Shown: piece by piece, positions 3,501 through 61,504 of the stretch
Numbering within the stretch: the first letter of the stretch is position 1
How the letters are laid out: every line of letters starts with the position of its first letter
Assembly (NCBI RefSeq): GCF_016808095.1
Contig: NC_068971.1
Location: 32,651,631-32,715,630 of the forward strand
DNA: 64,000 nucleotides
Direction of reading: 5' to 3'
Source of the DNA: Vigna angularis
Taxonomy: Eukaryota; Streptophyta; Magnoliopsida; Fabales; Fabaceae
Notes under the pieces: generated by a model
What the model was told of the DNA's origin: nothing
Database searches by the model: none
Seen by the model: the letters and a program-made list of their open reading frames with translations, nothing else
Translations under genes and position numbers: made by a program

Positions 3501-3640
3501 CGACTCTTACATCTTCTCCCCGTCCGATCCAAAGAACAACTTGCTGATATCTTTACGAAATTTCCGCATCGCGTCAAGTTTGGAACCATTATTCCCAAGC
3601 TTGGACTGGTTAACATACATTGTCCAGCTTGAGGGGAGGC

Positions 3641-11835: not shown

Positions 11836-13732
11836 ATGGAGGATAGTTTCAGAGTGCGAGTAGAGAGAGCCTTTGGTTCTCTTCCAATACCCTCTTCTTC
11901 TATCAACTCTCTGTGGTCTCTCACCGAAGACGAAATCGATAACGCACGCTCCAAACGAACCCTCCAACCCCAACCCTACCCTTTTTCCAGTTCGCGGGTT
12001 CAGCCGGAGGACCTAGACGATCTTGAAGACGACGACGTCGACGAAGAAGCACCACGTGGACCCTCTAAACCCCCCGATTACGATGATGAACAGTGGCAGA
12101 TTAGGTCTGGTATTGGCCAAGATTGCACCCTCGATTACGAGGTATATATACCATTCATCCCTCTTTATTCTTTCCCCCCAATAATATTTTATCATGAACT
12201 AACATTATGCAGTTATAATTTTAATTCAACCAATTTGATGATGAAAATTGCTTCTTTTTTTCCTTTTTGAAAAAAAAAAATCATTTAGACCTGCGATGAA
12301 GGAAAGCTTTTTCCTTTTAATTTGGGTTTACTATCCCTCTTTTTTGTGTGTGAGGAAATTGTGTAGGAAGAAGATTTAAATATATAAGAGTCTGTTACTG
12401 TTACCACTTAGTCCCCCCATGGGTTCACTGTTGTTCCACCTTAACTAGTGGTCTCTAAATTTGAGGGTTTTTTGGTTTAATGTGAAAATTTGTGTAGGAA
12501 GATGAGTTTATTGAAGAGTATATTATGAAGGTGATGGACTAAGATTGTATACTTAAATTTCATATATAATGAAACACATGGATCTAATCGGATGGGGTTG
12601 TTTCATTTTAGTTAAATGGTTTTGTGTTTGAACCCATGGTATGCCTGCACCAAATTCCTTTTATTGTGGTTGTTATCATTTGTGTAAGCAAATATATAAT
12701 TAAACTTGAGAAGGGCTATCTGTTTTTTCTCTGTGATTCTTGTTTTGTTGTCAGTTTTTGTTACCAGTTTTTCACTGTCAAAGTTTGGATTGGAAAAGAA
12801 AATTGAGTGAATCACACTTTATGTAGGAAGAGGAAGATCAATATGACAAACAGGCTATTGGGAAAGAGGATTCGGGTGATCGTGTGTACATGAAGGATGT
12901 AAAGGACGATGGAGTTGAGATTAGTTCTAGCAGTGTTTTCCCCACCTCGTTTAGAGATTTTGTGCGAGATCCGCGTGCAAATCATTTGGCTGCAAGGATT
13001 AAGCTGAAGCAGGATGATGAAGCCGCTAAAAAGATAGATGCTCTACATGTCTCTGAGAAATCCACACCAGACGTAGGCAGTGGCGGAGATGCTACTAATC
13101 CCAAGTCAATTTTGAAGAGTAAGGATAATTCTGGGGAGTCCAGGCCTCAGAAACGGGTTCGGTTTGACCCTGAATGTGATGATAAAGATAATTATGATGA
13201 TGATGGGCACGAAGAAGCTAGGGATGTTCGCATGAAGACCTCTTCAATGGAAGAGGTTCCTGCTTCGGACCAGTTGTCAAAGTCACAGGAATTTAATTTA
13301 GCAGTTCCGGATTACATTCGAAATCCTTCCAGATACACTCGATATACCTTTGATGATTCTCCTAGTGAAATGGATGACAAATCAAACAAGGAAGCATACA
13401 TGAGCTTCCTTTCGCAGTTGAATAAGGGAACTGCATCTCAAGCGGATGATGTTCTGGATGATCTTCCATCTGTAACCTTTATATCAAAGAAGAAATCCGG
13501 TGATTCCTGTATGCGTGACAGTGAGATGGTTTCAAAGCACAAGCTTGATGATGGCGCCCTGAATAGAATAAGCTTCCCTGTTGGCATTGCTGCTGGTGAC
13601 TCTGAAAACAGTGACGTTTCTGCAATGGAGGAGGATGAACAAGAAGTTGGGGATGTTAAAAAGAGCATGCAGAAGTTCAACCGCAAGTACAGGAAGAAAA
13701 CCCAAGAGGAGTTGGAGGAGCCAATTGTGTAA
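11836..13732 (+). CDS. TSSC4-like U5 snRNP assembly factor, two exons
   Basis: Exon 1 is 11836-12141 (102 codons, ending DYE before GTATATATA). Exon 2 is 12827-13732 (after ATGTAG, beginning EEEDQYD, stop TAA). The phase-0 junction gives 403 aa. The protein is hydrophilic and acidic, with an N terminus MEDSFRVRVERAFGSL, a basic PQKRVRFDP patch, and a conserved block around residues 262-280 (VPDYIRNPSRYTRYTFDD) resembling the core of the TSSC4 family. Human TSSC4 is a chaperone in U5 snRNP and tri-snRNP assembly; a nuclear splicing role is inferred from the family. The start was chosen because a TATA box lies between it and the upstream ATG. The C terminus is lysine-rich (KFNRKYRKKTQEELEE). 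The exon structure is secure, the family call fairly so. Confidence 0.8.
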
Positions 13733-18736: not shown

Positions 18737-19259
18737 TGACTTGGACCTTTGCTACTTGTTTGATAATAACTTTCAGGGTGTTGCTCCCTCTACCACCCCA
18801 AGTGCTTCTGCATCTCCCCACTATTTTCTTTTATTCCAAAAATGTTCTACACCTCCTCATTATTTTCTTTTATTCAGAAAATACTCTACACCTCCCCACT
18901 ATCCTCAATAATCTTTCTCTTTTTCTCTCTACATTAATGGAACATTCATATGGCTTAGATTTAAACTTGTGATATATTGCAAAATATAAAATTCAGAGAA
19001 ACTTCAATATTAGTGCTTCTATCACTTCCATTTTATAAACTTAAAAGTTAGATGCAAATACAAAATAATAAACATAATAATATTAATAGTAAATAATATA
19101 TTATTATTATTATATACTAACTTTATAATGACGAAAGAACTAAATAAATTCCAAATCTTTAACAAATAATTTTTCTTTTATATTTTAAGTATTTAATAAT
19201 ATTTTTATGTTATTTATCTAATAAATTAAATACTTTATTCAAGTTATTTGAGTCAAACA

Positions 19260-20268
19260 TGTCGGTAAGTTAAAACATAATATAATGTTAAAAATTATAG
19301 ATATTAAATGTAAAAAAAAAACATTATAGAGTCGCGCAACGGAATAAAATACTCGGAAAGCGTGTTACGGTCACAAATCAAGTTTTGATGGTCCGTTTTA
19401 GAAAAACAATTTTCTTAGAGAAAATTTATCAAACACTTTATGTGCATAAAATAGTAAAGAGAGTAGGGAGTAGAAAAATTGATACATTGGAATTTTATCC
19501 TGGTTCGATTCAAAAGAATCTACATCCAGTTGTTAATCACTATAAAAAGTGAATAACGTTTTCACTAAAATCAGTTTCACAAATTACAATAAGAGTGAAT
19601 TAAAAACAGAGAGATAAAACCTTCCTTCGACGAATGAACCAGAAGATGACCACCTTGTCAACTCGAAGAGAACCGCTCCGACTATCGACACACGAAACGC
19701 GAGCTTCTCCTATTCACGAGACCAGGAAAAGCACTTGAACTAGCTTTTTAGAACTTCCTCAGACAAACTGTATTCTCAAAAAGCTCAGAGTTAACCCTCT
19801 AAGGGTTTTGGAACAACCTTATATAGCCAACTGGTCTAAGTTCGCAGAGATAGATTATAACTGCCACAGATAATCGATTATTGTTAGTGATAATCGATTA
19901 TTTGAGTCCGTTACAAGGTTTTTCAAAAGTGATAATCGATTATTCTGAGGAATAATCGATTATTCCAGAGACTTTGGCAGTTCTCATCAAAACCAATGAT
20001 AATCGATTATTTGGAGTAATAATCGATTATTCCAGAGCAGCGAGGTTTTTTAGAAAAGCTCAGGATAATCGATTATATCTTCTAATAATCGATTAAATAT
20101 GTAACAGTTCTGGAAGTACAAATTTTTCTAAGTATTACATGTTCAAAGCCTTTCCTAATACATTTATAATCTACAAAGTGATTTTAAAACAATTATAACA
20201 GTCTATCTTCTTGCAGCAGCATCAAAATCATTTATCTTCAAATTTACCAATGCTCCTCATTGGTAACA
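19260..20268 (-). repeat. 3' LTR of the gag-only element
   Basis: This 1009-bp LTR carries eight TAATCGATTA palindromes (19871, 19891, 19933, 19953, 20000, 20020, 20066, 20086). A minus-strand TATA box lies at about 19830-19841 (CTATATAAGG). Next to its outer end, 58 AT-rich bases (19266-19323) replace 14 bases found in the other LTR. Confidence 0.9.
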
Positions 20269-21687
20269 ATCTCTCCCTTTTTGATGATGATCAAAAATCA
20301 CTTTTTAAAAGCAACTTTGGGTTATCTTCAAAAGATACAAACTAACAGACAACAAGAAGAGTTAGTAGTAACTGCACATATTTCTCCCCCTTTTTTATCA
20401 TAAGCAAAAAGATTTATAATTCTCCCCCTTAAGATATGCTCACCCCTCAACAAAAGAATAGGTGTATTTTAAACTTTCATAACATGAAAGAACAAAGTTC
20501 ATCATAGAACACATAAATTTAGCTCTTAATCAAGAAATACAAGTAAGACTTTAAAAAGGAGGGGTTGAAGAATAATAAGGAGGTGGAAGATGTCAACCAA
20601 AATTTTCTCCCCCTAAATTTAATATTCCCCTTTTAAAAAAAATTCCAAAAATTTAAGATTTATTCAGTCCAATGCAATGCATAAATTTGTAACAGTCAGT
20701 TCAAATTAGGCTTTGTAATTCCAAAAGAGTTTAACATGAAAGCATTACAGCTAGCACAATTAGTTTTAAACTAACTTTGACAGCACAATTTACAACTTCC
20801 TAGACAACAACTGTCATACATGCATTCTCATATCACAATCTGCTCAATCCCATAAATTTAGCTATGCATATCAAAACAACATATACAAAAATTCAACCAC
20901 AAGAGCTGATTCAGGTTTTATCGTTCAACAGTTTTAAACAAAATAATTTACATCAAAATTATGCAAATTTGATCAGTTCATTTTCTGCATCCAGGCTCTC
21001 AATGTATATTATCATAGCTTATTCGTTATGCATTTGAACTTAAAAACAAATCTCCACAAAACCAACTTTGAAATAGAAATGACAATTTAATTTCACATGT
21101 CTTAATCATCCAAAATTGCTAATGAAAATTTGTCAGCCAACTCATTTAAATGACTTTTTCATAGTTTTTGATGCTTGACAGAGATTACACCAAAGATAAC
21201 TTCAAAGTACTCATGAAATTGAATACTAAGCCAGTTAAACACAAATTCAATAGATAATTATCAACAAAGCACTGAAATAACAATGCACATGGCTTTACAT
21301 GACATGAATGAAATTCAGCACATGAATATCTTAAATAGATGAATTTCACTTGTAAACAGACAAGAACACACCACAAGATGAATGAAACAGTGATGAACAT
21401 ATCATTTGCCTAACCAAAAATGAATATAACAGTAATTAAATAATGGAAGATCAAGTAAAAGCAAGATGCAACATCATAGTTTAAACAACACTTAACTCAA
21501 ATACTTGGTGCTTGAACGAAGGCTTTGGGTACCACTTGATGGAGTTACATCCTGGCTTGTAGCATAAATTCAAAGAGCATAATACCATAGAGCTCTCTTA
21601 TCCTTTTGAAAACTTAACCTGCAAAGTAAAAACAATATAGTTTTTGTACCCATAATCTCATTTGGGTCTTTTGAGATTAGAGACATA
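20269..21687. other. Internal non-coding part of the gag-only element
   Basis: These 1.4 kb between the gag stop and the 3' LTR hold no significant reading frame on either strand. In a full element pol would lie here; it appears deleted or unrelated sequence remains. Confidence 0.6.
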
Positions 21688-22974
21688 TTACTTTATAACA
21701 GGAATCCAAGCATATTTCCCATTTGAAACATCAAAATGTTTAATTCTACATTTGTTTGAAGTATGTCCCTTTTTCATGCAATAAAAACAACAAACATCAT
21801 GCATCTTGTTTTTCACAAAAGTCCCTTTCTCAACCCAAACTCTACGATTTCTCTTAACTTTAGACTTTTTATGATGATGCATGTTTATATTTCTAACATT
21901 GCTCTTTCTAAAAACATTTTGAACATGTGAGATAGGCTTGATTCCTTTAGAAAGTAAATTTTCTAGTATGTCAATGTCAAACATGTGACTTTTACAAGAT
22001 AAACACTCAACAGGTTTTTCATTTGGATTAGATTCAGACAATTTTGTTTCAAGATTACTAACTTTGTTTCTTAATATGACTTCCTCATCTAATGCATTTT
22101 TATATTTCCATTTCAATTCTTTAAATTCCTTTTTCATATTTTTATGAGCAACATTCAATGTTTCAGATTCATCAAGTAATTCAAGAAATGCCTTTTGTAA
22201 ATCAAATTCACTAGATTCATAGCTAGAATTACTTACTTGGCTTCCAGCATCATCAAAATTAGCTGTCAAACACAAGTTTACTTCTTCAACAGAATCACTT
22301 GAACTAGAGGTGGTTGATGCATTATCCTCCCAAGCAATGTGAACCTTCTTCTTCTTGTGAATTTTATTTTCTTTTCTTTCTTTACTTCTTTTGTTTCTTG
22401 AACAATAAGCTTTCACATGGCCTCTTTCACCACATCCATAACATTTGAAGCTTGAAGAGGAACCTTGATAGTCCTTCTTTCCCTTCAAGATTTTGCTTTC
22501 AGATGATTTATCGTTGGCCATCAAGCATAGATTTTCTTGCTCATTAGAATCGCTTGAGCTTGAGGAGTTTGATGTAGAGCATGAGTTCGAACAAGTCAAC
22601 TTAGCCACATTCGATACTTCATCATGAGTGACTCTTAAAATTTTCCACATTTCTTGAGCACTTTTATAAACAGACACTTTGAAAAAATAATCAATGGTTA
22701 GTACAGATAAAATTATATTACGAGCCTTAATATCAAATTGGGCTCTTCTATTTTCCTCAACAGTCCAGTCAAAATATGACTTTTCTACTTCCACACCATC
22801 AACTGTATTTTTAGGAATATATGGACCATTTTGTACGGCTTCCCAGATGCCTCTGTCAATTGACTCTAAAAATATTTGCATTCTTCTTTTCCAAAACGCA
22901 TAATTTTCCCCCGTAAACAAAGGAGGTCTATCAATAGAAGCACCCTCAGCATAAACTTGGTTATGACCGCCCAT
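21688..22974 (-). CDS. Copia gag polyprotein (SIRE-like) of the nested element
   Basis: A 428-aa frame starts at MGGHNQVY. An upstream ATG at 23097 lies in the LTR and was not used. Early in the protein is a typical copia gag segment (FTGENYAFWKRRMQIFLES, then an EENRRAQFDIKARNIIL helix). A CCHC zinc knuckle follows (CYGCGERGHVKAYC). After a Ser/Glu-rich stretch and a coiled-coil-like region (FKELKWKYKNALDEE) there is a second CCHC knuckle (CFYCMKKGHTSNKC). The frame ends shortly after with no protease, so the polyprotein is cut off by deletion of pol. The product would form retrotransposon particles, not serve the host. Confidence 0.88.
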   Translation of the reverse strand: MGGHNQVYAEGASIDRPPLFTGENYAFWKRRMQIFLESIDRGIWEAVQNGPYIPKNTVDGVEVEKSYFDWTVEENRRAQFDIKARNIILSVLTIDYFFKVSVYKSAQEMWKILRVTHDEVSNVAKLTCSNSCSTSNSSSSSDSNEQENLCLMANDKSSESKILKGKKDYQGSSSSFKCYGCGERGHVKAYCSRNKRSKERKENKIHKKKKVHIAWEDNASTTSSSSDSVEEVNLCLTANFDDAGSQVSNSSYESSEFDLQKAFLELLDESETLNVAHKNMKKEFKELKWKYKNALDEEVILRNKVSNLETKLSESNPNEKPVECLSCKSHMFDIDILENLLSKGIKPISHVQNVFRKSNVRNINMHHHKKSKVKRNRRVWVEKGTFVKNKMHDVCCFYCMKKGHTSNKCRIKHFDVSNGKYAWIPVIK

Positions 22975-23019
22975 TTTCGAAAAATTTGAAAAACTATTAA
23001 AGCAATCTCTGATACCAAT

Positions 23020-23963
23020 TGTCGGAACAATCGGTACCGTTATAGAGTCGCGCAACAGAATAAAATATTCGGAAAGCGTGTTACGGTCACAAATCAAGTT
23101 TTGCTGGTCCGTTATAGAAAAACAAATTTCTTAGAGAAAATTTATCAAACAGTTGATGTGCATAAAATAGTAAAGAGAGTAGGAGTAGAAAAATTGATAC
23201 ATTGGAATTTTATCCTGGTTCGATTCAAAAGAATCTACATCCAGTTGTTAATCACTATAAAAAGTGATTAACGTTTTCCCTAAAATCAGTTTCACAAATT
23301 ACAATAAGAGTGAATAAAAAACAGAGAGATAAAACCTTCCTTCGACAAACGAACCGGAAGATGACCACCTTGCCAACTCGAAGAGAACCGCTCCGACTAT
23401 CAACACACGAAACACGAGCTTCTCCTATTCACGAGACCAGGCAAAGCACTTGAACTAGCTTTTTAGAACTTCCTCAGACAAACTGTATTCTCAAAAAGCT
23501 CAGAGTTAACCCTCTAAGGGTTTTGGAACAACCTTATATAGCCAACTGGTCTGAGTTCGCAGAGATAGATTATAACTGCCACAGATAATCGATTATTGTT
23601 AGTGATAATCGATTATTTGAGTCCGTTACAAGGTTTTTCAAAAGTGATAATCGATTATCCTGAGGAATAATCGATTATTCCACAGACTTTGGTAGTTCTC
23701 ATCAGAACCAGTAATAATCGATTATTCCAAAGCAACGAGGTTTTTCAGAAAAGCTCAGGATAATCGATTATAGCTTCTAATAATCGATTAAATACGTAAC
23801 AGTTCTGGAAGTACGAATTTTTCTAAGTATTACATGTTCAAAGTCTGTCCTAATACATTTATAATCTATAAAGTGCTTTTAAAATAATTATAACAGTCTA
23901 TCTTCTTGCAGCATCATCAAAATCATTTATCTTCAAATTTACTAATGCTCCTCATTGGTAACA
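23020..23963 (-). repeat. 5' LTR of the gag-only element
   Basis: This 944-bp LTR is very similar to the 3' copy. It carries seven TAATCGATTA palindromes (23586, 23606, 23648, 23668, 23715, 23761, 23781); one of the third pair has been lost by a roughly 20-bp deletion. A TATA box lies near 23530-23541 on the minus strand. Confidence 0.9.
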
Positions 23964-24322
23964 AAACACACATATATATAAACATTTTTCTAGAAATTTA
24001 GAACAAAATTTTACCATTTATTAAGTAATTTGAAGAAAACAAAATATATTGAATAGTGAAAATAAGATTGAATCAAACTTATATAAGGGAAAGTGTAAAT
24101 AAAATTTTGCAATACATCACAAGTTTAAATCTGAGTCATGTGAATACTCCATTAATGTAGAGAGAGAAATAAAAAGATTATTGAATATAGTGGGGAGGTG
24201 TAGGGTATTTTTAAAATAAAAGAAAATAGTGGGGAGGTGTAGAGTATTTTTGGAATAAAAGAAAATAGTGGGGAGGTGCAGGAACACTTGAGGTGGTGGA
24301 GGGAGCAACACCTTAACTTTCA

Positions 24323-28230: not shown

Positions 28231-31200
28231 TTAGAATAATCGCTTCCTGCAGTCGGCGGCCCCACAATAGCATGTCATTTGCTTGATCTTCCCATCGGAG
28301 CCCAACACGCTATCTAGAGCGTAACCATAGTCATACGTTAATTCCTGCAAGCAATTCAAGACATTCAAGACATTGGTATAAATACTCCACAGAAAAATTT
28401 GGGAGAAATAAAGAAAATGAGATACCTGCAAAGGAGGTATGTTGTCCGCAGCAAACAGCATTACACGAGCCAACCTCAAATCATCGTGTGTGCTCAAAAC
28501 ACACTGCACGAACAGATTAGGCTCACAACAATGGTTTATAAATCTAGCAATATTTCCAGTAGATCCAGCATCAATGCAAAACTCTGGCACACTTTCGGAA
28601 CTTAGATCATCATATTTGTTCAATATATCTTCAGGAATTTCTCCATCTTGTGACCGCCTCTGTTCAAATTTACATAACCCAAGAGACAAGACATGTTTAG
28701 ATGAAACTAAAGTAGCTGACAAAAACGATGTTACAAGACTTGATAGGATTCAATACCTCTCTACCACCAAGGCCCTTGATCGTTTGCAAGCCATCTATCT
28801 CAAAAATATAATTGTTTTCCAACATGCTATCCATGTCTTCCGTTCTAGCAAGTATTCCTGTGTACTCACAAACTGGTGCTCCAGAAGGTATAAAATCCCA
28901 GGATCTGACAGCCCATCCCTTTTTGGCAGTCCGGAAAACCTATGCAATAATTTAATTAAATACACCATTACAATGCCAATATATTTTTCATTGATAGTCC
29001 AAAAAATGCGGAAACCAATCAAATATGCTACCTCCAGACGATATCTAAGTCCTTTTTGAGAAGTTCGGTTGACACAACCAGGACCACAACCACATTTGGG
29101 GCCACATTCAAATACTACATCTTTAGCTTCTACTAACCTGTCAATACAGCATAGCCCCATCAAATACAAAAGCAAATAAATTCATAGGCACCTGACCAAT
29201 CGAGTTTCTAACCTGCCACCATTCCGAGATACATAGGGAAAATCAGAGCCATTACGCAGAGCACATGCACATGTTGTTGGGTCATTACAGGAGCCTTTGC
29301 ATTTGCATCCAGCGGCATTAGTTGGAAGCTTCACATTTTTTGCTACCTTAAGAGACTTGCAATATGTGAAACCTGTAACAATATTAAAAAACTAGACATC
29401 AAATATATACTCCCCATTTTTCTCTCAGTACATATCCTATGCTATGTGTAATTAGACTATAGCTAGGTTGAACGGTAATGCATTTAGGAGTCACTCAAAA
29501 CAAGAGTTTTTTAGGAGTTCTGTAAAGGGCGGATTTTCAAAGAATTTCTTAAAAACTTGTATCTTTCAAGCTATTTGTCATCTTTATTTACTAAATTGAG
29601 TTTTAATTTCTTTTAAACAATAATAGCTAACATTATCTATATTATCACAAAATATTATTTAACATTAATCTAAAACATGAGTATATGATAAAAATATTTA
29701 TTATGAAATTAATTATAATATAAAAATTTTAGTTATTTAATGGAATGGGAGGAGGGAGCAAATGGTATGGTTGATAGTTGAAACCTCAAGATTTTGAAAA
29801 AGAGGTAATGAAATTCAGTACATAACACAGATGAGGAGAGAATCATGGAAAGAAGAGTTGCTGACTAATAACAGATAAACGATATCATAAATTTTGTTTT
29901 CAAATTCCTCCCACTTCAGATAAATATGAAATCCGCACTGAAGCACCAATACACAAGTTTTTAGGGTATGTATTCTTGTTGAGGACGTAGCTGTTACAAT
30001 CTGTTTTATTAGCTATATTATTTCTAGTCTTGTATATATAGATTTTATTCTCAACATAATAAGATGAATTATTCTATCCTAAATTATAACATGATGTCAA
30101 CGCCTGGGAGCCGCCTCTGACTACGCACACCAAAATCCTAGACGGCAGCCTTCATTGTTGCCACCGCTTGTTCACAGAACTTAGAAAGGTAAAGGGAAAG
30201 CTAACCACTTGACTGAAGATGCTCCAACAGAAGATCTCAAATTTACAAAATGGGATGAAGAGGACTCTATGATCATGGCATAGCTATAGAACTCCATGAT
30301 CCCAGAAATCACTGATACTTGCTTGTTTCTTAATTCTGCAAAGGAGATTCGGAATGCCATGGAGCATACATCTCCAAAGCTAAAGATGATGCCCAAATAT
30401 ATGTGATGTGAAGGTGAAGATTATTGCTACAAAATAGGGAAACAAGACTGTTACAGAGTATGCCAATCAACTCAAATCCCTATGAATGGAATTAGACCAT
30501 TACAGGGTCATAAGAGCCAAGTGCTTAGATGATTCAGCAATGCTCAAAGAGTATATTGAGCAAGATAGAGTCTATGATTTCTTGGTGGGGCTTAACGAAG
30601 TGTGGCATACCTTCTATAACAAGTCTCACCACACTCATGATATATGTTGGAAGCTACATGGAAAGTCACCTAGTAAAGATTGGGTATCCCATAATTGTGA
30701 CAAGGAGTTGGGAAAGAAAGGAGACAACACTAGAAAGGGAGGACAAGCACACATAGGTGCTGCAATAAATGAAGAAAATAAAAGAGGGTTGATTCAACTT
30801 AACGAGGATGAAGTAGAGCAGATGAGATCATTCCTCAAAAAGATGGATAAGTCACCAGGTAGTTGTTGTCTGGCACATTCACGTACATTTGGTAAGATTT
30901 TTTCTTTTGGACTTAATGCCTCTGATAAAAACCATAACCCATATTGGATACTAGATTCCGGGGCCACCGTCCACATGACACCACTACTTAAACATTTTTC
31001 AACTTACATACATCCCTTGTCCTAGCAAGAAAAAAATATCCACATTTGATGGCTCTCTGATGACTATAGCAGGTCAAGGAGAAGTCAAAATAAGCCAGTT
31101 ACAAGTTGCATTCACACTAGACCTGATGTTGCATTCACTATGAGTCTAGTTAGCTAGTTCATGCACCAACCAAAGGAGATTCACTTACAAGTTGCTCTAA

Positions 31201-33284: not shown

Positions 33285-36200
33285 TGTATTGCAAATTCTT
33301 TGTTTAAACTTGCCTGAGGGTGGAACAGGGGGATCGTCTACCACATTTGTAGCTGGAATGGGTATATCTTCTTGACCTCCGGTGATATCCTCACAAACCA
33401 ATCTAAGCAAAAGTGAAACAAGATTTTAAGCCAACATAAGTTGAATAAATCACATTAAATTTTCAATTTATATGCCGTTTTACCCTCTTATTTCTGCTAT
33501 AGATTGAGGAACACGTCCATGAGTAAAATAAACCTGTTAACAGAGTAAGATAAGCAAAGATATTTTAAAGCCCCACTGTTTACATTACAAATTAAATTAC
33601 CTTTGTCTCAAATCATGATCAATAAATAGCAAATTCATAAAACAAACTATTCAATATAGTAATCTCCCGTGTCTGAAACACACGTAAGGTAATATATTTA
33701 TAATGCAGAATGATACAAATATATATGAGAACCAAACATAAATATGGTAAATAGAATATATTGCTAAAAAAATATCAACAATATCTACCAATATCAAACA
33801 ATAACAAAAGTCTATGTTTCCCTAATTAATATAAAACGCAATATATCTAACACTCTCCTTGGTGCATACAAATTGTATGTACCAAGCTTGTTACAAATAT
33901 AATCAATTCTTAGTCCCCTTAAAGACTTAGTAAAAATATCTACTAAGTGATCATTTGAGTTAACAAATTCAATCTTGATATCTCCAAATACAATTTTTTT
34001 CTTGAATGAGATGACAATAATCTCAATCTGTTTGCTCCTTTCATGAAAGACAGAACTATAACCTATATGAAGAGTCGCCTTATTGTCACATATAAATATC
34101 CTTTGAGTGACATTTCCAAATTCTAACTCTTTAAGCAATTGCTTAAGCCAAACAAGTTTACAAGTGACTGAGGTAATAGCTCTATATTCAGCTTCTACAC
34201 TAGATCTTGCCACAACACTTTGTTTTTTGCTCTTCTAAGACATGAAGTTACCACCAATGGAGACACAATATGTTAGGTACCTAGGTTTGGAACCTAACAA
34301 GAACACACTCAGAACATAGAAACAACAATGGAAGAATGTGTTTTTCTATTATTCACCATAAAAGAATCATCTTTACAAAGAATGGGTTGGGGGCATAACC
34401 TCCCTGGTTGAGAGCATAACCTCCCTCTATAGGCTAAAGACCTAACTTTACACAAAATACACTCGATCCCCCCTACAGAGTTACAAGAGCTCTATTTATA
34501 GCAACTCTAACCCGCTCCCCTTTTTACAACTGACACAACCGACACCCCCACACCCTTAACTCCTAAACCCAATCTATCCTAACACAATACCTGAAGGTAG
34601 ATCTTCTATCAAAAAGAGATCCTTCCCAACTAGCATTTGAATAGTAAAAATTTTTTGTATAGTTATTGAAACCATTTAACAAACATTTTCCAGGAAATCC
34701 TTTAATGTACTTTAATATGCGAATGATTGCATTCCAATGATTTTCACATGGGGAATTGATAAATTGGCTCACCGCACTAACTGCAAAGGAAATGTCAGGA
34801 TGAATAACTATAAGGTAATTTAATTTCCCAACCAATTTTCTATATTGCTAAGGATCTAAAATAGGCTCACCCTGATTTGGTAGGAGTTTGGTAATAGGAT
34901 TCATGGGAGTGTCAACAGGTTCAAATTCATACTTCCTTTGAGATATAACAATATCAACGTTAGATTGTGCTACCTCAATGCCCGAGAAGTATCTGAGTTT
35001 GCCAAGATCTTTGGTTTGAAAATGGTAACCAATATTTGTCACTAGTAAAGTGATCTAGGAGATGTCATGGTGGTCACAGGTGGTAAAAATAGTCATCAAC
35101 ATATACTATCAAATAGACACAACCATCACTTGAGTGATGGTAAAAGACTTAATGATTTGCCTCCCTTCAAGTCATATCAAATTGTTGGTTGAACCACGTT
35201 GCTAAGTTTGCCAACATAGGCTCTAAGAGACTGTTTCAGGCAATATAAGAATTTACGAAGACAACATACAAATCTAGAAGACTCCTCATGAGCAACAAAT
35301 TCGGAAGGTTGCTTTATATAAATTTCTTCCTATAAAACTCCATTAACGAAAGCATTTTTTCCATCAAGTTGATAAAAAGGACATTGTTGAAGAGCAGTCA
35401 TGGCCAGAAATAAACGAACAGAAGCCATCGTTGCCAGTGGAGAAAAAGTATCTCTCCATAATCCAATCCAAAAATTTGAGTGACGTTTGACTACAAGTCT
35501 AGTTTTGAGGTGATCAATAGTACCATCATGACCAACTTTGATAGAAAAAACCCTTCTGCAACCAACGACAAATTTCCCAAATGATAATGGGACGAGCTCC
35601 CATGTTCCACTATTCTAATGAGCACATAGTTCATTTAGCATGGCCTAACACCAACCATGATGGGGTAAGGCATCTCTGACAAATTTAGGAATGGACACAA
35701 AAGAGATAGACGAAAAAGATGTATAGAAAGGTGAAGACAATCTAAGGTAACTCAAAGAAATATAATGTGGAGAGAAATTACGATTAGAACATATAACTTT
35801 ATGAAGGACAACTAGAAGATCAAACTCACTTGTCAGAGCTAGAGGAAACAATATAGTTGGCACTTGAAGTGAGTCACTTGGTGGTTGTTGGGAATGATGT
35901 TTTTGACTATAAAGTTGAAGTAGAGGTGGAAGAGGAGAATTTGACAATGGACTAGACATAACTAGATGATCACAAACAACACGAATATTGACTGTAATAG
36001 ACAGACACATCAAAAGAAGGACCCTTAAAATAAAAAGAAGACTCATTAAAGGTGACATCTACCAATTAAGAGAATGACAAAAACACTTATATCTTTTTTG
36101 TGATCAAGTAAATCCTAAAAAGACATATTTGTGATATTTAGAAGGTAACTTATCAAGACCAGAAATAAAATTATAAACATAACATGTAGACCCAAAAACT

Positions 36201-39200
36201 TTAATAGGTAAGAGATGTAAAGGTGCATGAGGAAATAAAATAGAATGAGGAATTTTGTTATTAAAAATTGATAATGGCATTCGGTTAATAAGATAACATT
36301 CAGTAAGAATAACATCACCCCAAAAATGTTGAGAAACCTCACCATGAATTAAAAGTATGCGAGTTGTTTCAACAAGATGTCTATTTTTGCTCCCCACCAC
36401 CCCATTTTGTTGAGGTGTATAAGCACATGAAATTTGATGAAGAATGTCATGAGAAACCATAAAATGCTTAAAAGAATGGGAAAGGTATTCACGACCATTA
36501 TCACTTCGCTAAGTTTAAATAGAAATCCCAAATTGAGTTTTAATTTCATTATAAAATGATTGAAATATAGAAAATAACTCAGAACGATTTTTCATTAAAA
36601 CAACCAAGTGCATCTCGAATAATCATCGATAAAAGTAACAAAATACTAAAACCCTAAATTAGACTTGAGACGACCAAGATCCTAGATGTCAGAGTGAACT
36701 CATGCAGAAGGTGACGCAGCACGTTGTGAGAAATTACAAGGAAAAGAACTATGACTATGTTTCCCTAATTGACATGACTCACAACAAATTAAATAAATTG
36801 AACAAATTGGAAACAAGTTGCTACAATTTGGCACGACTGAAATGACCTGACTAAGCATGAAGAGATGGAGATTACATAATTGTGTCAACATGTGTAGAAA
36901 GGCAAAGATGACAAAGGAATTACCTGTTCTGCACTACAGTCCTATAAACAAAAAAAAATTTTGATAAAAAAAAATAACAATCAAGAGAACGGGTTAGACA
37001 ACTAATGGATAATAAGTTAAAAGGAGACCTAGGGACATAAAGAACATTAGCAATGGTTAAAGATGAAAAAAGATTAACAGTAGCAACACCATAAGATAAG
37101 ACTCTAAACCAATCAACCATTGTAACTGTAGATAAATTATCCCAAGATAAAGAAGAAAACAAATATTTGTTATCAGTAATGTGATTTGTGACACCTAAGT
37201 CGAGAACCCAAGGTCCAAGAGAAGAAGGTTGGGTTAGACCAGCAAGAGATATTTTTGTGGCTACAACAGATGCAGTGGAACAAGAGTTCTAAGGATCGTC
37301 ATCCTTTGAGAAATTCATTGAAAAGAGCAAATTGGCCCGCACTATCAGAAGAAGCAACGAAAGAATCCATGTGTAGAGAAAAGCTCTAAAAAACCAAGAT
37401 TCTCCAATCAAGACAACAAGGATAGATCCTAAAAAGGATAAAGAGACGACTTCAGCGCAACTAACTGTTGGCTAGATGATATGATCCTATGCAGGAAAAA
37501 GTACGCTTGTTTCTGAATTTGATCCTCCCATAGCATAAACAAAGAAAATCAGAGAAGAACCAGTGTTCTGTGAGTCAATAAAAATTCGCCGCAAAAATCC
37601 CAATCTTAGATAAGAACCAGTGTTCTGTGACAAGAACCAAGAGAATCCTCTTTCAATGAATTCAATATTCAAATATTAACTATCAAAAATTTTAGGCTCT
37701 AGATACCGAATTGAATATAGTAAAACTAGGTATAGGATTAATCTCTCTTGTGTCTGAAAGATATATAGGATAATATATTTATAAAGAAGAATGATACAAG
37801 TAATATGGCAACCAATCATAAATATGGTAAATAGAAGATATTGTTAAAAACAATATTAACAATATCTACCAATAGCTAAAGTCTATGTTTCCCTAATTAA
37901 CATAAAACACAATATATCTAACACAAACTAATAGGTGACAAAACAAGAAAATGTTTTTGATGAAATTAAGGAATAATGCTAAACCTGATTTGTGGTTAAT
38001 GTAGGTTGCCCTTCAAGCCTCCTAAGTCGAAACTTAAAGACTTTAAATCCAGATATCCCTGTCTCACACCAATAATTGACAACCTGCAAATAAAGAAAGA
38101 AAAAAAAGTGCGTAAGGAATTTTAATTATAAACCTTAACTTGCATACAAATGTTGCCCCTGTTTTCCATCTCATTTCTTAATCGGCAATTAAAAATTGCA
38201 ACATTTGAGTCACGAGCAAATGCCACTATGAGAACAACTACAATGCAATAGGAATTAGAAGAAAGTCAACATAAAATATGTCCCACATCACGTCTACCAC
38301 GAGAAAAAGTTTGTATGACCAAGGCAAAGGAATTAGAAGAGTTAGGGTGATAAGTGCAATGATTAGAATGTGATAAAGGACCAAAAAAAGATTTGGGCAT
38401 TTGTATTTGTTTCTAATTTTTTTTAAATAGAAAATTTATTTGTTCATTAACCTTTTGAAATTAGATTGTTATTGGATGGGCCTTGTAGTCTTAAACTCTT
38501 TTCAAATAAAAGCTTACGCTTTATGAGAAATTATCTCCAAGTCCTAGTGAATAACTCTTTATTCTTGTTTTTGAATTGTTAATAAAAAGTGGTGAATCTA
38601 CTTTGATCTATTAATCATTCTTAATTATGGCGTCTTCATCAACTTATATCCTTCCAGATTTTTTATCTTTTAATCGTTTGGTAGAAACTATCATTCTCCC
38701 TACTTAATTAGGTGTTCATCACATGGGGATGCCCAAAAGATTTTTGGGTACACAAGAAATCAAGGTCTAGCAAGAGACCAAGATGAGCAATGAACCATAT
38801 TGATAAAGTAAAAGGTATGTGCGTCAGTGGTGAAAGAAGACATTAGATTGTTCTAATCAACAACCAAAGGATCAAGCTTAACAAGATACATCTATATGTT
38901 TGTATTCTCTAGCTTGATGCCCAAACAATTTACACTACAAAAACAATAAACATTGTTGGAGTAGAGTTTTTTGGCTTTGACCCATAACTTGTAACAAGTT
39001 GGAAACGTTGATATTGAGGTTAGAGGTTGAAACAAATAACAAATGAAAGAAAAATGTGAGAATTTGTTGCCAATGATCCCAATCTTACGCACGAGTATAA
39101 ATTGCCTGATTACACCGGAAGGCAGTGCATGAACAGCACACGCCTGATTACAGCAGACTAAGATGGCATGTGTGGCAGCGCATGGTGAAGAGTCTGGCAC

Positions 39201-47590: not shown

Positions 47591-48554
47591 AGTAAACTTA
47601 ATTTATTTTGTTTAAAATTAATTTTTTTAGAAATTAATTTAATCATAACTGGTATAATTTTTTGGTTTTTATAATGAAATTGAATATTCATGATCAACCA
47701 AATAATAAAATAAAGTTAAAATATTACATGAGATACAGATTATACACATAATTAAGTATAATTATTTTTATCATAATTCATAATGAAGTTCTTTCATTTA
47801 GGTATGTAAGTAATATATTCAAATATATTATACTGGATCACTGTTTGAATAAGTTATCGTGTTTTGAATGTTTATTATTCTTAATAAGTTATCAATTTCT
47901 TCTAAGGTATGTTAAGATAAATGAATTCTAACAATTTGGTATTGTTACTAATTTGTCAAAGTAGTATAATTGTCATATAATATATTATTCACTATTATAA
48001 CTAAGTAAAATATAAATAAGTTTACTCACAAATGGTAAGAAAAGTAAGATGATTTCATAATGATGGTCAAAAACTTCTTTTAGACCTTAGTATTAAGCAT
48101 TAACCAACTACACATCCATTCCTAGGTTTCCATTTTCACATAAAATTTTTGTACACAAATTGTTCAAAGTTGGTTCATCTAGAGACACTAAAAGCTTCTC
48201 TTTATTAGCTTTATCTTTGTTTTTCTTCTTGATTTCATGCTATAAATCCCCTTGATTAAAGTAATCTTCAAAATTTATTAAGCCAAAGTTAAGTCATTAA
48301 ATTGCGTATCCAACTAATAAAATTGACCAAATTAATTTTCGTGATACCTTGCTCGTCACTAGTTTAATTATTTATTTATTTCTCTTCTAAATTTTTTCTT
48401 TATTAATGATTATTCTGGCTAGTAATATGCACAATTTGAAAGAAAAAAATATTTTGATTATTAGAAATGTTTTAAAATTTATTACAACATATTTATTTAT
48501 TCATATCATCATTCATGTATACATAGATAGAGTTATTCATTAATTGAATTTGTC
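47591..48554. other. 3' flank of the multi-CLE gene, AT-rich
   Basis: No gene was recognised. Confidence 0.4.
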
Positions 48555-49292
48555 TTACACAATTATATCTTTTGAAATGTTGTGGAGTGGATTTGGACCT
48601 GATAGGACTTGTCGCTTAATATGATAACTATTACTAGATTGTAAGAAATTGTTATGGAGTGGATTTGGACCTGATGGGACTTGTCGCTTAATATGATAAC
48701 TATCACTGGATTGTAAGAAATTGTTGTGAAGTGGATTTGGACCTGACGGGACTTGTCGCTTAATATGATAACTATCACTGGATTGTAAGAAATTGTTGTG
48801 AAGTGGATTTGGACCTGACGGGACTTGTCGCTTAATATGATAACTATCACTGGATTGTAAGAAATTGTTGTGGAGTGGATTTGGACCTGATGGGACTTGT
48901 CGCTTAATATGATAACCATTACTGGATTGTAATAAATTGTTGTGGAGTGTATTTGGACCTGACGGGACTTGTCGCTTAATATTATAACTATCACTGGATT
49001 GTAAAAAATTGTTGTGGAGTGGATTTGGACCTGATGGGACTGTACGCTTAATATTATAAACATCACTTGATTGTAAGGAGTTGGGATGATTGATATATGA
49101 ATCTTTTGAACCGCTCCTTAAAATCTGATCAACTTTTCTTGTTTGCATTGAGTAATGATGAATTGGTTCTAGACCAATTAGTCTCTCTTTTACACTCCGA
49201 GGAAAGTTTGTGGCTATTGCATTGCTAATGAAGAATGCATAAAGAACAACGGTAACAATGGATGCATATGTAGCCACAAGAAATGTTGCCAT
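48555..49292 (-). CDS. Multi-CLE signalling peptide precursor, seven CLE repeats
   Basis: A 245-aa intronless protein. It opens with a hydrophobic signal peptide (residues about 1-27, ending SNAIA) for secretion, then a variable region (28-80). Seven CLE motifs follow at exact 24-residue steps: 83-94, 107-118, 131-142, 155-166, 179-190, 203-214 and 227-238. The consensus is RQVPSGPNPLHN, always preceded by Lys; spacers resemble NFLQSSDSYHI. Motif 1 has T for Q, motif 2 has T for the second P, and motif 7 has L for the first P. CLE peptides are cleaved 12-13-mers sensed by CLV1/BAM-type receptor kinases in meristem, vascular, root and nodule control. Most precursors carry one motif at the C terminus; multi-motif forms are rare. 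The ATG at 49292 was chosen because a TATA box lies between it and the upstream in-frame ATG at 49358. Confidence 0.93.
   Translation of the reverse strand: MATFLVATYASIVTVVLYAFFISNAIATNFPRSVKERLIGLEPIHHYSMQTRKVDQILRSGSKDSYINHPNSLQSSDVYNIKRTVPSGPNPLHNNFLQSSDSYNIKRQVPSGPNTLHNNLLQSSNGYHIKRQVPSGPNPLHNNFLQSSDSYHIKRQVPSGPNPLHNNFLQSSDSYHIKRQVPSGPNPLHNNFLQSSDSYHIKRQVPSGPNPLHNNFLQSSNSYHIKRQVLSGPNPLHNISKDIIV
48579..49078 (-). repeat. 72-bp tandem repeat encoding the CLE units
   Basis: Seven units in perfect 72-bp register. CLE-coding segments lie at 49011-49046, 48939-48974, 48867-48902, 48795-48830, 48723-48758, 48651-48686 and 48579-48614. Units 3-6 are nearly identical in DNA, while the first two and the last are more diverged, as expected if the array grew from the middle. 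Confidence 0.95.
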
Positions 49293-49341: not shown

Positions 49342-49352
49342 AATATATATAG
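49342..49352 (-). promoter_or_regulatory. TATA box of the multi-CLE gene
   Basis: The minus strand reads CTATATATATTA 50 bp before the ATG at 49292. It supports this start and an actively transcribed gene with a short leader. Confidence 0.55.
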
Positions 49353-49399
49353 GCTCAATTCAAGAACTTAGTGAATGTTTGCGTTGTCGTTATAACTTC

Positions 49400-55378: not shown

Positions 55379-58187
55379 TGTTGTATAAAAGCTGACAAAA
55401 TCACGAGCAGTATTTCCTGAGGCGTGTAGATTCACTGTCCTTAAAGACTTATCCGCGGTGTATTGTGCAAGTCCCCCAGAATACAACAGGAACTTCCCAG
55501 AATATCTCTGAGGATCTCAGAACTAGCAAGGATCTCTAAAACGAGTATAAAATAAACCCAGAATAATTTTAGAAGAGAAAAAGAAGAAAAAAGAAGGATA
55601 GAAAACTGCTTTTGGTGTGTTTTTGGAATGGGAAAAAACTCTCTATTTATAGAGCTAGAAAGAATAAAATCAATAAAAGACAATAAAAGTCATTAAATAT
55701 TTTATCGTTGGAGCACTTAATAAAATGAATGTAAACATTGTTGGCAATTAAAGTTTTGAACGTTGCAATCCAACGTTTTTCTTTTGCAATAATCTAACAT
55801 TATTACAACAATCCCCCACTTATTGCAAAAGAAAGTTGAAATAAAAGGTCTTTGACTCAAATAGTTCAAATACTAAAAGACAAATAAGAAACTTTTATTT
55901 TGGGTCTCATAGGATGTAATGCATCAGACCTGATATAACAAGCTATATGAACCAGTCTTAGATTGAAATACTTAACACACAGTGTAGTTGGTATAACAAG
56001 CTATATAAACCAAAGACACTTGACGTGTGTTAGAGGTTTATCAATCACAATACACCCCTACAATCCTTGCTGTTATCGTTGTGTTGCGCTTACTAGGCCA
56101 TGCGCGTGGCCAGTATTCATGAGTGCTCTAGAGATCATGCCAAGATCTCATACAAGCGGCCCCACTCGATACTCATATAGGTGATTTCATCAAGTGTATG
56201 CTGCAAATCATACACCATCCATAAGGGATATGAAAATCATTAAAAATTTTGTTTAAACTAAAATTCTTTCACCACATAGAATTTTAATAACAAAGTTTAG
56301 CCTCTCAATAATGTAGTCTCTAACATTTTCACACACACCATAGGAATATACATAATTGATTAAAATCAATTTAGTGCTATCAGAACTAACAAGTGACTTG
56401 TTTTTACCCATATGAACCTTATTCATGGGATCTCCAATCACAAAGGTTGGGTTACCATCACTTGTTTGTTTGCAAGTGACTTAAGTCTCATTCCCCTCGA
56501 TGCTTCTAATATTATTTGTCTTCCCATGAGTTTTGTCAGAGGATCTGCTAGATTTTGTTCTGACTTCACATAATCAATGGAAATAGTTCCACTCTTTAGC
56601 AGCTACTTCACCAAATTGTGTCTCTATTCTTTCCATTGTAATTATTGTTTTTAGCTATAGCTATTGCCGATTAGCAATCACAGTGTATTGACACCAATGG
56701 GGTTGGTTTCGTTCCTAGTGGAATGTTTGCTAAGAAGTTTTTCAACCACTCAGCCTCACTATCAGCCATCTCAAGAGCGAAAAACTCATATTTCATTATT
56801 GATCTTAATTGTTTGTCTAGTTGATCTCTATGTAATCGCACCACCCCCAAGTGTGAATACATAACCACTAATGAATTTTGTCTCATCTGAATCAAAGATC
56901 CAGTTAACATCACTGTACCCTTCTAGTACATCGGGAAATCCACTATATTCAATGACGTAATCCATTGAACTTCTTACGTATCTTATAAGCCTAGAAAGTG
57001 CATCCCAATGTTCTTGATTTGGACATTGAGTGTACCTACTCAATTTACCTACTGCATAAGCAATATCAGGTCTAGAAAAACTCATAAAGTGCACTAAGCT
57101 CCAAATTATCTAGGCATACTAAGGCTGAGATAATGATTCTCCTTTATTTTTCATTAATTTAGAATTAACATCATAAGGGATACTCACTGGTTTGAGGTTA
57201 TAAAACCTAAACTTCTTAAGAGTTTTCTCAATATATTGTTCTTGGGATAATAATATACTATCTTCCTTCCTTATGATTCTAATACCTAAAATCACATTGG
57301 CTTCACCCATGTCTTTCATTTCAAATTTTGATCCTAGAAACAATTTAGTTCTAGCGACAATCTCATTGCGTACAAACATATAATGACACAATCACCATTT
57401 TCAAATTTAGAATACTATCAATATCATTAGGTGAAAAGCCAAAATTTATTTTTCGAGTAATTAAGTAAAATTATCTACACCTCCACAATTTTAAAATTTT
57501 AAGATTGGTAAACGAGAAAATACCTGGTTGTGCTTTTCTCTTTGTAGGGAAAATATACAAAAATTTACTCAAGTACCTTATTTTCTTCGTCTTCATCCGC
57601 GGTCCTTACAAATGCGATCATAAGCCATTGTTGTTGCAAGCACCTTGGCAGCCTCTGGAAGTTATGGGTTTCGCAAATACCGTCTGAGTTCTGAAAACAA
57701 AGTTTTGATCCTCCGGGATTGAGTTGTTGATGTTAGCCATAAGTCCTTAAGATTGTTGTATAAAAGCTGACAAAATCACGAGCAATATTTCCTGAGGCGT
57801 GTAGATTCAATGTCCTTAAAGACTTATCCGCGGTGTATTACGCAAGTCCCCCAGAATACAACAAGAACTTCCCATAATATCTCTGAGGATCTCAGAACTA
57901 GCAAGGATCTCTATAAAGAGTATAAAATAAACCCAGAATAATTTTAGAAGAGGAAAAGAAGAAATGAGTAGGAGAGAAGACTGCTTTTCGTGTGTCTTTG
58001 GAATGAGGGAAAAAACTCTCTATTTACAGAGTTAGGAAAGAATAAAATCAATAAAAGACAATAAAAGTCATTAAATATTTTATCGTTGGAGCACTTAATA
58101 AAATGAATTTAAACGTTATTGACAATTAAACTTTTGAATGGTGCACTCCAACTTTTTCTTTTGCAATAATCTAACATTATTATAACA
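55379..58187 (-). mobile_element. Deleted copia element with paired LTRs
   Basis: LTRs at 55379-55810 (3') and 57754-58187 (5') begin TGTTGTATAAAAG and end TATAACA/TACAACA on the plus strand. Flanks GGTGA and TGTGA fit a mutated 5-bp target duplication. A polypurine tract (AAGTGGGGGAT on minus) adjoins the 3' LTR. Minus-strand remnants are the end of RT (57391-57119, with FEMKDMGEANVILGIRI), the RT-RNase H linker (57094-56828, with SRPDIAYAVGKLSRY) and part of RNase H (56913-56671). Gag, protease and integrase are gone. Confidence 0.88.
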
Positions 58188-60000: not shown

Positions 60001-60541
60001 AGGTAAATTCAATCTTCGCTCGCAAATCCGCATGAACAGTAAAATCTATTCATGCGAACACAGCGTAATAGTATAAAGACACAACTAGGCAACATGTACA
60101 TTGCAAATATATCATATATTTTCTTTTCTATTATACATTACAAACATTTGTATTTGATTCTATATCAATTATTACATAACCATTATGAACTGATTAAACT
60201 CTATATAAAAAATTAAGTACATTAGACTATATTCAAATATTTAGCTTAGTTAGAAGTTGTGAAGAGTTGGAGTTACTTTCCCTACTTTTAAAAAAATACA
60301 CTGCACTAATATAATATAATAGATATAATAAATAATCTGAAAACAAAATTATCTGAAAATACATTTTTATTCTTATTTCCTTTTTAATACGAGATATATA
60401 ATTCCGGCAGCGTTGGTGGAAGCTTCCAGGGGAAGTTTCGGAAGCTGGCGGCATCCACATTTGACGTTTGACCGAAAGCCAAACCAAATAATTCTGGGAT
60501 CGAATTTTGGGCGCAGACGCGGCAGAGAAGCGATTCAATCA
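60001..60541. other. Upstream region of the DUF716 gene
   Basis: Contains the probable promoter and 5' leader; a CTATATAAAAAA box lies near 60201. The in-frame ATG at 60413 gives a 43-residue extension of arginine-rich non-membrane sequence and was not chosen. Confidence 0.4.
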
Positions 60542-61504
60542 ATGGAACTCCTCTCTTTTGCGTTGGGAGGCGTTGGGTTCATTCTTGTCGGAGCACACGA
60601 AGCGCTTATTCACGTTTCCCCATCCAAACAATCCCCAATCTCTTCCGCTTCCTCTTCTCCGTCCAATTCTCCAACCAACAAACTCTTACTTCCGATCTCC
60701 CTCGCAATCCTCTCCTCATTTTTCATCCTCAACTCCACAGTGTCCCTTCTCAGCGCACACAACTCAAACGACGCCGTCGGCACCGCGCTTCAGCTGCAAG
60801 TCCTCCCCATCGCGTTCATCTTCCTCTTCTACTCCCTTCTTCCTCTCTTCTCTCTCCCTTCGCCGTTGCACGGCCTCGTTGGCCTCTTCGCTTTCGCCGA
60901 AGAGTTTCTCCTCTTCTACCTTCAGCGCAAGGACCCCACCGGCGTCGAGAACCGTTACTACGATCTCTTGCTCGTTCCCATCGCAATCTGCCTTTTCTGC
61001 ACTCTTCTCGATGTGGGATCTCCGCGGTCAAGTGTTCCCAAACTGGGCCGCGGTGTGGGCCTGATTCTCCACGGAACATGGCTTCTCCAAATGGGCCTCT
61101 CCCTCTTCTCGGGCTGGGTGGCCCAGGGGTGCTCTCTGCACCGAGTGAGCAGAGGGAACTACACGCTGAGGTGCAAGGGGCACCCGGAGTATCATCGGGC
61201 CAGGGCCATAGCCACGCTTCAGTTCAATTGCCACCTCGCGTTCATAGTGGTGGTTCTTGTTGGCTTCTTCTCCCTTGTTTGCGCCAGAATCGGAGGAGGA
61301 ACCCACCTTGACTCTGTTCCCACGCGGTACGCGCCGCTCGGTGCTGAATTGCAGAATATGCAGGACTCGACAAACTTCACTTTGGACTCTGATGAAGATG
61401 ATGATGATGGCAGACAAGAGGGCCACAATGTGGGTAACGAGAAAGGAGTTGCTGTGGAGCATGCTGTCAATGGTAATGGGGTAATGCCTCTCACCACTCA
61501 GTGA
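60542..61504 (+). CDS. DUF716/TMEM45-like multi-pass membrane protein
   Basis: A 320-aa intronless protein. About seven hydrophobic segments can be seen: 1-25 (LSFALGGVGFILVGAHEALIH), about 49-71, 88-108, 112-131, 145-165, 175-198 (LILHGTWLLQMGLSLFSGW) and 231-255. The His-rich first segment and the HGTWLLQMG block are typical of the plant DUF716 (TMEM45-like) family. The tail (about 280-320) is acidic, with an EDDDD run, and probably cytosolic. Function is poorly known; some plant members respond to virus infection. Start at MELLSFAL puts the first membrane helix at the N terminus, as in the family. The GC content is much higher than the surroundings. Confidence 0.88.
   Translation: MELLSFALGGVGFILVGAHEALIHVSPSKQSPISSASSSPSNSPTNKLLLPISLAILSSFFILNSTVSLLSAHNSNDAVGTALQLQVLPIAFIFLFYSLLPLFSLPSPLHGLVGLFAFAEEFLLFYLQRKDPTGVENRYYDLLLVPIAICLFCTLLDVGSPRSSVPKLGRGVGLILHGTWLLQMGLSLFSGWVAQGCSLHRVSRGNYTLRCKGHPEYHRARAIATLQFNCHLAFIVVVLVGFFSLVCARIGGGTHLDSVPTRYAPLGAELQNMQDSTNFTLDSDEDDDDGRQEGHNVGNEKGVAVEHAVNGNGVMPLTTQ

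Follow-up and report, generated by a model that had tools for sequence, protein, structure and literature searches.

The window analysed here, a stretch of 64,000 nucleotides of Vigna angularis DNA, carries on its minus strand what we consider, with a probability of roughly 0.8, to be a functional prepropeptide gene of the multi-CLE kind known in legumes from MtCLE14, LjCLE46/LjCLE47 and GmCLE37. This reading is based on the reading frame, the leader and the exact register of the repeats, on the lack of any stop codon or indel in the seven copies together with fewer amino-acid changes than expected, on the Ile-Lys pair ahead of all seven motifs, on the like anatomy of published legume genes, and on the two or more motifs counted in all 16 relatives retrieved from the database.

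According to the ORF listing and its translation, the coding sequence occupies positions 48555–49292 (minus strand, as are all features of the gene given below), with the ATG at 49292 and the stop codon at 48555–48557, and its 738 nt specify 245 amino acids without interruption and with no need of an intron; in the ORF listing the same frame starts upstream of the ATG, at a TTG at 49358. The precursor has a single hydrophobic maximum, at the N-terminus (Kyte-Doolittle 15-residue mean of 2.19 for the segment starting at residue 12), while no segment starting beyond residue 30 gives a positive mean, so that the rest of the precursor is non-hydrophobic. Residues 1–27 (49212–49292) probably form a signal peptide, since they contain this hydrophobic segment and end in S-N-A-I-A, a plausible signal-peptide terminus, for which cleavage after A25-I26-A27 was called by applying the (-3,-1) rule by eye to the A-x-A site. 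CLE precursors are typically basic, and the pI of this one is 9.99. With no Cys, no Trp, 35 Ser and 11 Lys it also has the composition of a CLE precursor, the available excerpts of PMC5570945 describing few Cys, little Trp and much Ser and Lys for this class. A TATA-box-like TATATATA lies about 59 nt 5' of the ATG (49344–49351), and an AATAAA resembling a poly(A) signal lies 54 nt past the stop codon (48496–48501) with a second one at 72 nt; both elements are consensus matches only, and the AATAAA words sit in AT-rich DNA. The repeat precursor is probably disordered.

The CLE domain consensus comprises 12–13 residues with R/H1, V3, P4, G6, P7, N/D8, P9, H11 and H/N12. Seven copies of such a domain are arranged in an array of 72-nt units at 48579–49082, each unit made up of a 12-residue spacer and a 12-residue CLE motif, and Tandem Repeats Finder reported this array with a period of 72, 7.0 copies, 93% matches, 0% indels and a score of 852, far above chance. 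The 12-mers start at residues 83, 107, 131, 155, 179, 203 and 227, that is, at a constant step of 24; Ile-Lys precedes every one of them, and Asn follows six while Ile follows the last. Motif 1 (49011–49046) reads RTVPSGPNPLHN, motif 2 (48939–48974) reads RQVPSGPNTLHN with Pro9 changed to Thr, motifs 3 (48867–48902), 4 (48795–48830), 5 (48723–48758) and 6 (48651–48686) all read RQVPSGPNPLHN, and motif 7 (48579–48614) reads RQVLSGPNPLHN with Pro4 changed to Leu and is followed by the tail ISKDIIV. Gly6, Pro7 and His11 are retained in all seven motifs, the exceptions to the consensus being the Pro4 lost from motif 7 and the Pro9 lost from motif 2. Each variant occurs in one copy and differs by single-base changes, apart from a two-base Thr/Gln codon difference in motif 1. 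The frame, the hydrophobic segment and the start positions thus agree with the original prediction of a leader followed by seven CLE dodecapeptides in exact 24-residue register; the Lys that it placed ahead of each motif is there as part of Ile-Lys, and its four ligand types, one of them in four copies, are found as motifs 3–6 and the variants 1, 2 and 7. Its spacer of 11–12 residues needs correction to exactly 12 (12 + 12 = 24).

Comparing the units as DNA, we found units 4 and 5 to be the same, units 2–7 to share 90–100% identity and unit 1 to be the outlier at 84.7–86.1%. The likeness of the inner copies fits homogenisation by slippage or unequal exchange, and we propose that unequal crossing-over or slippage of the 72-nt unit would have made the array and would keep its copies alike. 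Neither stop codons nor indels occur anywhere across the seven copies. Among the 18 distinct inter-repeat base changes 10 alter the amino acid, compared with about 76% expected without selection (71% plus 5% creating a stop), giving a one-sided P of 0.049 for fewer amino-acid changes than expected; the corresponding values are 0.12 for the spacer alone and 0.17 for the CLE part alone. We regard this as a weak sign of purifying selection between the repeats. The weakness of this signal, and a second open frame that runs through the array for 184 codons from stop to stop, would suit a pseudogene that is silent, or a minisatellite whose frame is open by chance, but the intact ATG, the hydrophobic leader, the CLE consensus, the Lys-Arg junctions and the TATA-like box, as well as the like anatomy of published genes and database relatives, make such an origin quite improbable.

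The leader-proximal part of the precursor may hold a trace of an older unit. Residues 35–46 (49155–49190), reading KERLIGLEPIHH, lie exactly 48 residues, or two units, ahead of motif 1 and possibly represent a decayed CLE 12-mer, for which the statistics are modest and mixed. Their CLE likeness has a P of 0.0015 by shuffling at this fixed position and of 0.043 at any position, the in-register stretch of residues 35–70 has a joint P of 0.0008, also by shuffling, and the DNA identity of 49 of 108 bases has a P of 0.00025 by codon shuffle; this testing was picked after the sequence had been seen. Taken alone, the slot at residues 59–70 does not resemble a CLE motif (P = 0.15). Local DNA alignment with gaps over bases 1–210 of the coding sequence found no decayed unit, which counts against one at the DNA level. 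In the 1-kb flanks no further decayed repeats exceeded the shuffles. A degenerate upstream motif, GKVLEGLNPHHN, was also found in the Bauhinia relative P0009 (P = 0.015), and P0001, P0012 and P0010 (P = 0.0025 for the last) likewise gave an upstream match at P < 0.05, with 12 of the 16 relatives giving none; in P0001 and P0012 the best upstream match is a recognisable CLE motif itself. Over these 16 tests, a decayed motif conserved among the relatives is weakly indicated.

These relatives came from a protein search in which the 7989 candidates sharing most words with the precursor were scored. All 16 contain at least two CLE motifs by a relaxed count, in a search that takes only proteins of 0.55–1.75 times the query length and so favours multi-motif forms. 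The ten that bear species names span nine plant genera, and neither Medicago, Lotus nor Glycine is named among the 16 matches from the 7989 candidates. The Bauhinia protein P0009 has the same spacer pattern as the precursor, HNN..SS..H(I/L).R, and its leader likewise ends in SNAIA; the start M(E/D/G)xSKxYL is common to several relatives. In P0001, P0002, P0004, P0007 and P0013 the -PLHN end is mixed with or replaced by ends of the -ESP, -EEP and -AQS types, which perhaps mark a second ligand type. Residues 1–110 searched against the protein database gave 9 candidates and no match up to E = 10, and the PDB sequence search likewise gave no match up to E = 10. Viral and prokaryote contigs contained 5 and 17 pattern matches, respectively, none of which was confirmed by tblastn. 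A Pfam scan of the precursor returned no CLE match; the matches that it did return, to an XAF1 zinc finger (below cut-off), UTP23_sensor (with a whole-protein score exceeding its cut-off), TetR_C_2 and DUF92, map to the repeat array or to the N-terminal region, and were set aside as spurious in appearance. PF27922 is precomputed on 10 of the 16 relatives and was absent from a rescan of six of those ten.

By its sequence features, the precursor is a fresh example of an already documented legume multi-CLE class, and we found no description of this Vigna gene among the open-licence PMC papers listed. The available excerpts of the two surveys report six domains for GmCLE37a/b and seven for MtCLE14 (Hastwell 2015, PMC4526924), and seven for LjCLE46 and LjCLE47, eight for LjCLE32 and nine for LjCLE33 (Hastwell 2017, PMC5570945), in units of 24–35 amino acids whose length is constant within each precursor except LjCLE33 (PMC5570945). 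Here the seven units measure exactly 24 amino acids each, and a neighbouring DUF716 gene places the locus in a legume. The original prediction had cited multi-motif CLE forms from a few plants and from cyst nematodes; the published cases are closer than it implied, namely the seven-domain MtCLE14 and LjCLE46/47.

MtCLE14 of Medicago truncatula (Medtr7g084100), compared through its description in excerpts of PMC4526924 and PMC5570945, is alike in its seven domains, in four identical 12-mers each followed by Asn, in having no predicted intron and in a signal-peptide cut predicted after residue 28. It differs in that the identical copies are domains 2–5 rather than motifs 3–6, that two hydrophobic residues rather than Ile-Lys precede them, and that the protein has 221 rather than 245 amino acids; furthermore, MtCLE09 and MtCLE46 are located no more than 9 kb from it (PMC5570945). 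The Lotus japonicus precursors LjCLE46 and LjCLE47 (285 and 250 amino acids), again known to us by description from excerpts of PMC5570945, resemble ours in their seven domains of fixed unit length and in a signal-peptide cut predicted after residue 27, but lie 2.6 kb apart with LjCLE33 another 6.7 kb away. In contrast to both cases, no further CLE gene was convincingly seen in the 64-kb window, either by motif search or by tblastn with the 16 relatives and the query, for which 165 of the 237 rows fell outside the gene and the best 15 of these 165, with a lowest E of 0.006, were inspected.

Soybean and Vigna belong to the same tribe. The soybean precursors GmCLE37a and GmCLE37b (185 and 190 amino acids) are thus multi-CLE proteins of a fairly near legume, but by their published description they have six domains, of whose 12-mers just two are identical (in GmCLE37b), and a predicted intron, while none is needed here (PMC4526924, in excerpt). 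The BnCLEm and RsCLEm genes of Brassica napus and radish share the tandem domains and short spacers, BnCLEm3 having five domains and each RsCLEm eight according to the excerpts of PMC11172632, but are genes of Brassicaceae. Cyst-nematode multidomain CLEs also carry tandem C-terminal CLE domains, but they are parasite proteins secreted into the host, and the part of the table seen in PMC8618561 lists other CLE sequences for them; a nematode effector was ruled out for our locus, the neighbouring DUF716 gene being a legume gene. The same table contains, for the mycorrhizal fungus Rhizophagus irregularis, a 12-mer identical to motif 1 (PMC8618561), which we take as a coincidence in a conserved motif.

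Mature CLE peptides carry hydroxylation and arabinosylation and are ligands of LRR receptor kinases, those of the CLV1/BAM type being their targets. In the mechanism that we propose, the preproprotein would enter the secretory pathway, the prolines of its CLE units would be hydroxylated and Pro7, present in all seven motifs, would be arabinosylated; subtilase-type proteases would then cleave the Lys-Arg junction in front of every Arg1 and cut behind every His-Asn end. Up to seven ligands of 12 or 13 residues, mainly RQVPSGPNPLHN, would thereby be freed and would act on CLV1/BAM-type receptor kinases. In CLV3 fusion proteins, enzymes of Arabidopsis seedlings cleave at Leu-Arg as well as at Lys-Arg (PMC3878228, in excerpt), and all seven junctions here are Lys-Arg. 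Similarly, the subtilase site of IDA, HN/SF, is cut after His-Asn, as given in the excerpts of PMC13082318, and resembles the HN end followed by N-F in our precursor. The best reading, with the processing steps as proposed, is that several ligands would be released and that most of them would be RQVPSGPNPLHN. With its copies presumably kept alike, the 72-nt array would have its main effect on dose per transcript; signal amplification by multi-CLE precursors was already proposed by Oelkers 2008 (PMC2254619, in excerpt), and dosage amplification by this precursor is plausible.

Not every motif need contribute. For a wheat precursor with four domains, the authors speculated that the first domain alone is the functional ligand (PMC6747155, in excerpt), and it is a possible, though clearly less probable, account of our gene that one or a few motifs are processed and active and that the others are merely carried along in a repeat array prone to mutation. 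The loss of conserved prolines from motifs 2 and 7 would agree with this, but the Ile-Lys/Arg junction together with Gly6, Pro7 and His11 is kept in all seven units, and four of the 12-mers are identical.

The original prediction had also suggested that the variants may act as weak agonists or antagonists; variants 1, 2 and 7 could equally well reflect drift within the repeat array. A mixed-ligand precursor, in which these variants are separate signals made in a fixed ratio with the main ligand, would accord with four ligand types in a single precursor and with the recurrence of Leu4 motifs in 2 of the 16 relatives, the form RQVLSGPNPLHD in the Prunus protein P0001 and RLVLSGPNHDHS in P0015, but each variant is single-copy and arises mostly by single-base changes, as expected from drift, and we consider this rather unlikely. 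Still more speculative is the idea that four CLE ligands come from one transcript at a fixed ratio and that the single-copy variants without Pro4 or Pro9 modulate the effect of the main one, the array being a fast-evolving dial of dose and mixture from which at least two older N-terminal units have been lost. Motif 7 might then be short-lived or inactive because it lacks Pro4, the proline that maps to the protective one of CLE40, in which hydroxylation of the proline near the cut shields from internal subtilase cutting (PMC13082318, in excerpt); the mapping of CLE40 Pro65 to position 4 was made in this analysis.

The precursor offers a good substrate for processing tests, its seven units being nearly identical yet marked by natural variants at three positions (2, 4 and 9), from which mass spectrometry could identify the repeats that undergo cleavage. 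According to the excerpts of PMC4526924 and PMC6747155, little is known of how multi-CLE precursors of plants are processed. Repeat number across Vigna accessions might likewise provide a natural dose series. With this gene a multi-CLE precursor is also seen in a bean of the Vigna type, whereas in common bean no orthologue of GmCLE37a/b was found by Hastwell 2015 (PMC4526924, in excerpt).

The DUF716 frame lies 11 kb from the CLE gene at 60536–61498 (plus strand) and shares 95% identity with a protein cluster named Vigna radiata, 92% with V. unguiculata and 87% with Phaseolus coccineus. A 301-bp unit forms two tandem copies, 99% alike, at 163–765; it had no match in Rfam, and part of it presumably resembles the internal promoter of 5S rRNA, a feature of Cassandra elements. 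It directly precedes a copia-type retroelement whose long open frames occupy 646–3629 (plus strand); Pfam identified GAG-pre-integrase, integrase and SH3-like domains at 646–1791, and the frames that follow look, from sequence alone, like reverse transcriptase and RNase H. At 18777–24312, inverted repeats of 209 nt, 89% complementary and 5.1 kb apart, enclose 39-bp subrepeats, many ATAATCGATTAT palindromes and a copia-type gag frame (21691–23130), and this element may be a DNA transposon that has acquired a retroelement. Broken frames resembling copia-type polyprotein fragments were read from the ORFs at 33815–37288 and 56831–57391 (minus strand). Pieces of plant genes were also seen, encoding a TSSC4-type protein at 12827–13729 (plus strand) and a SET-domain protein, which we take to be SUVR/SUVH-like, at 28234–28749 (minus strand).
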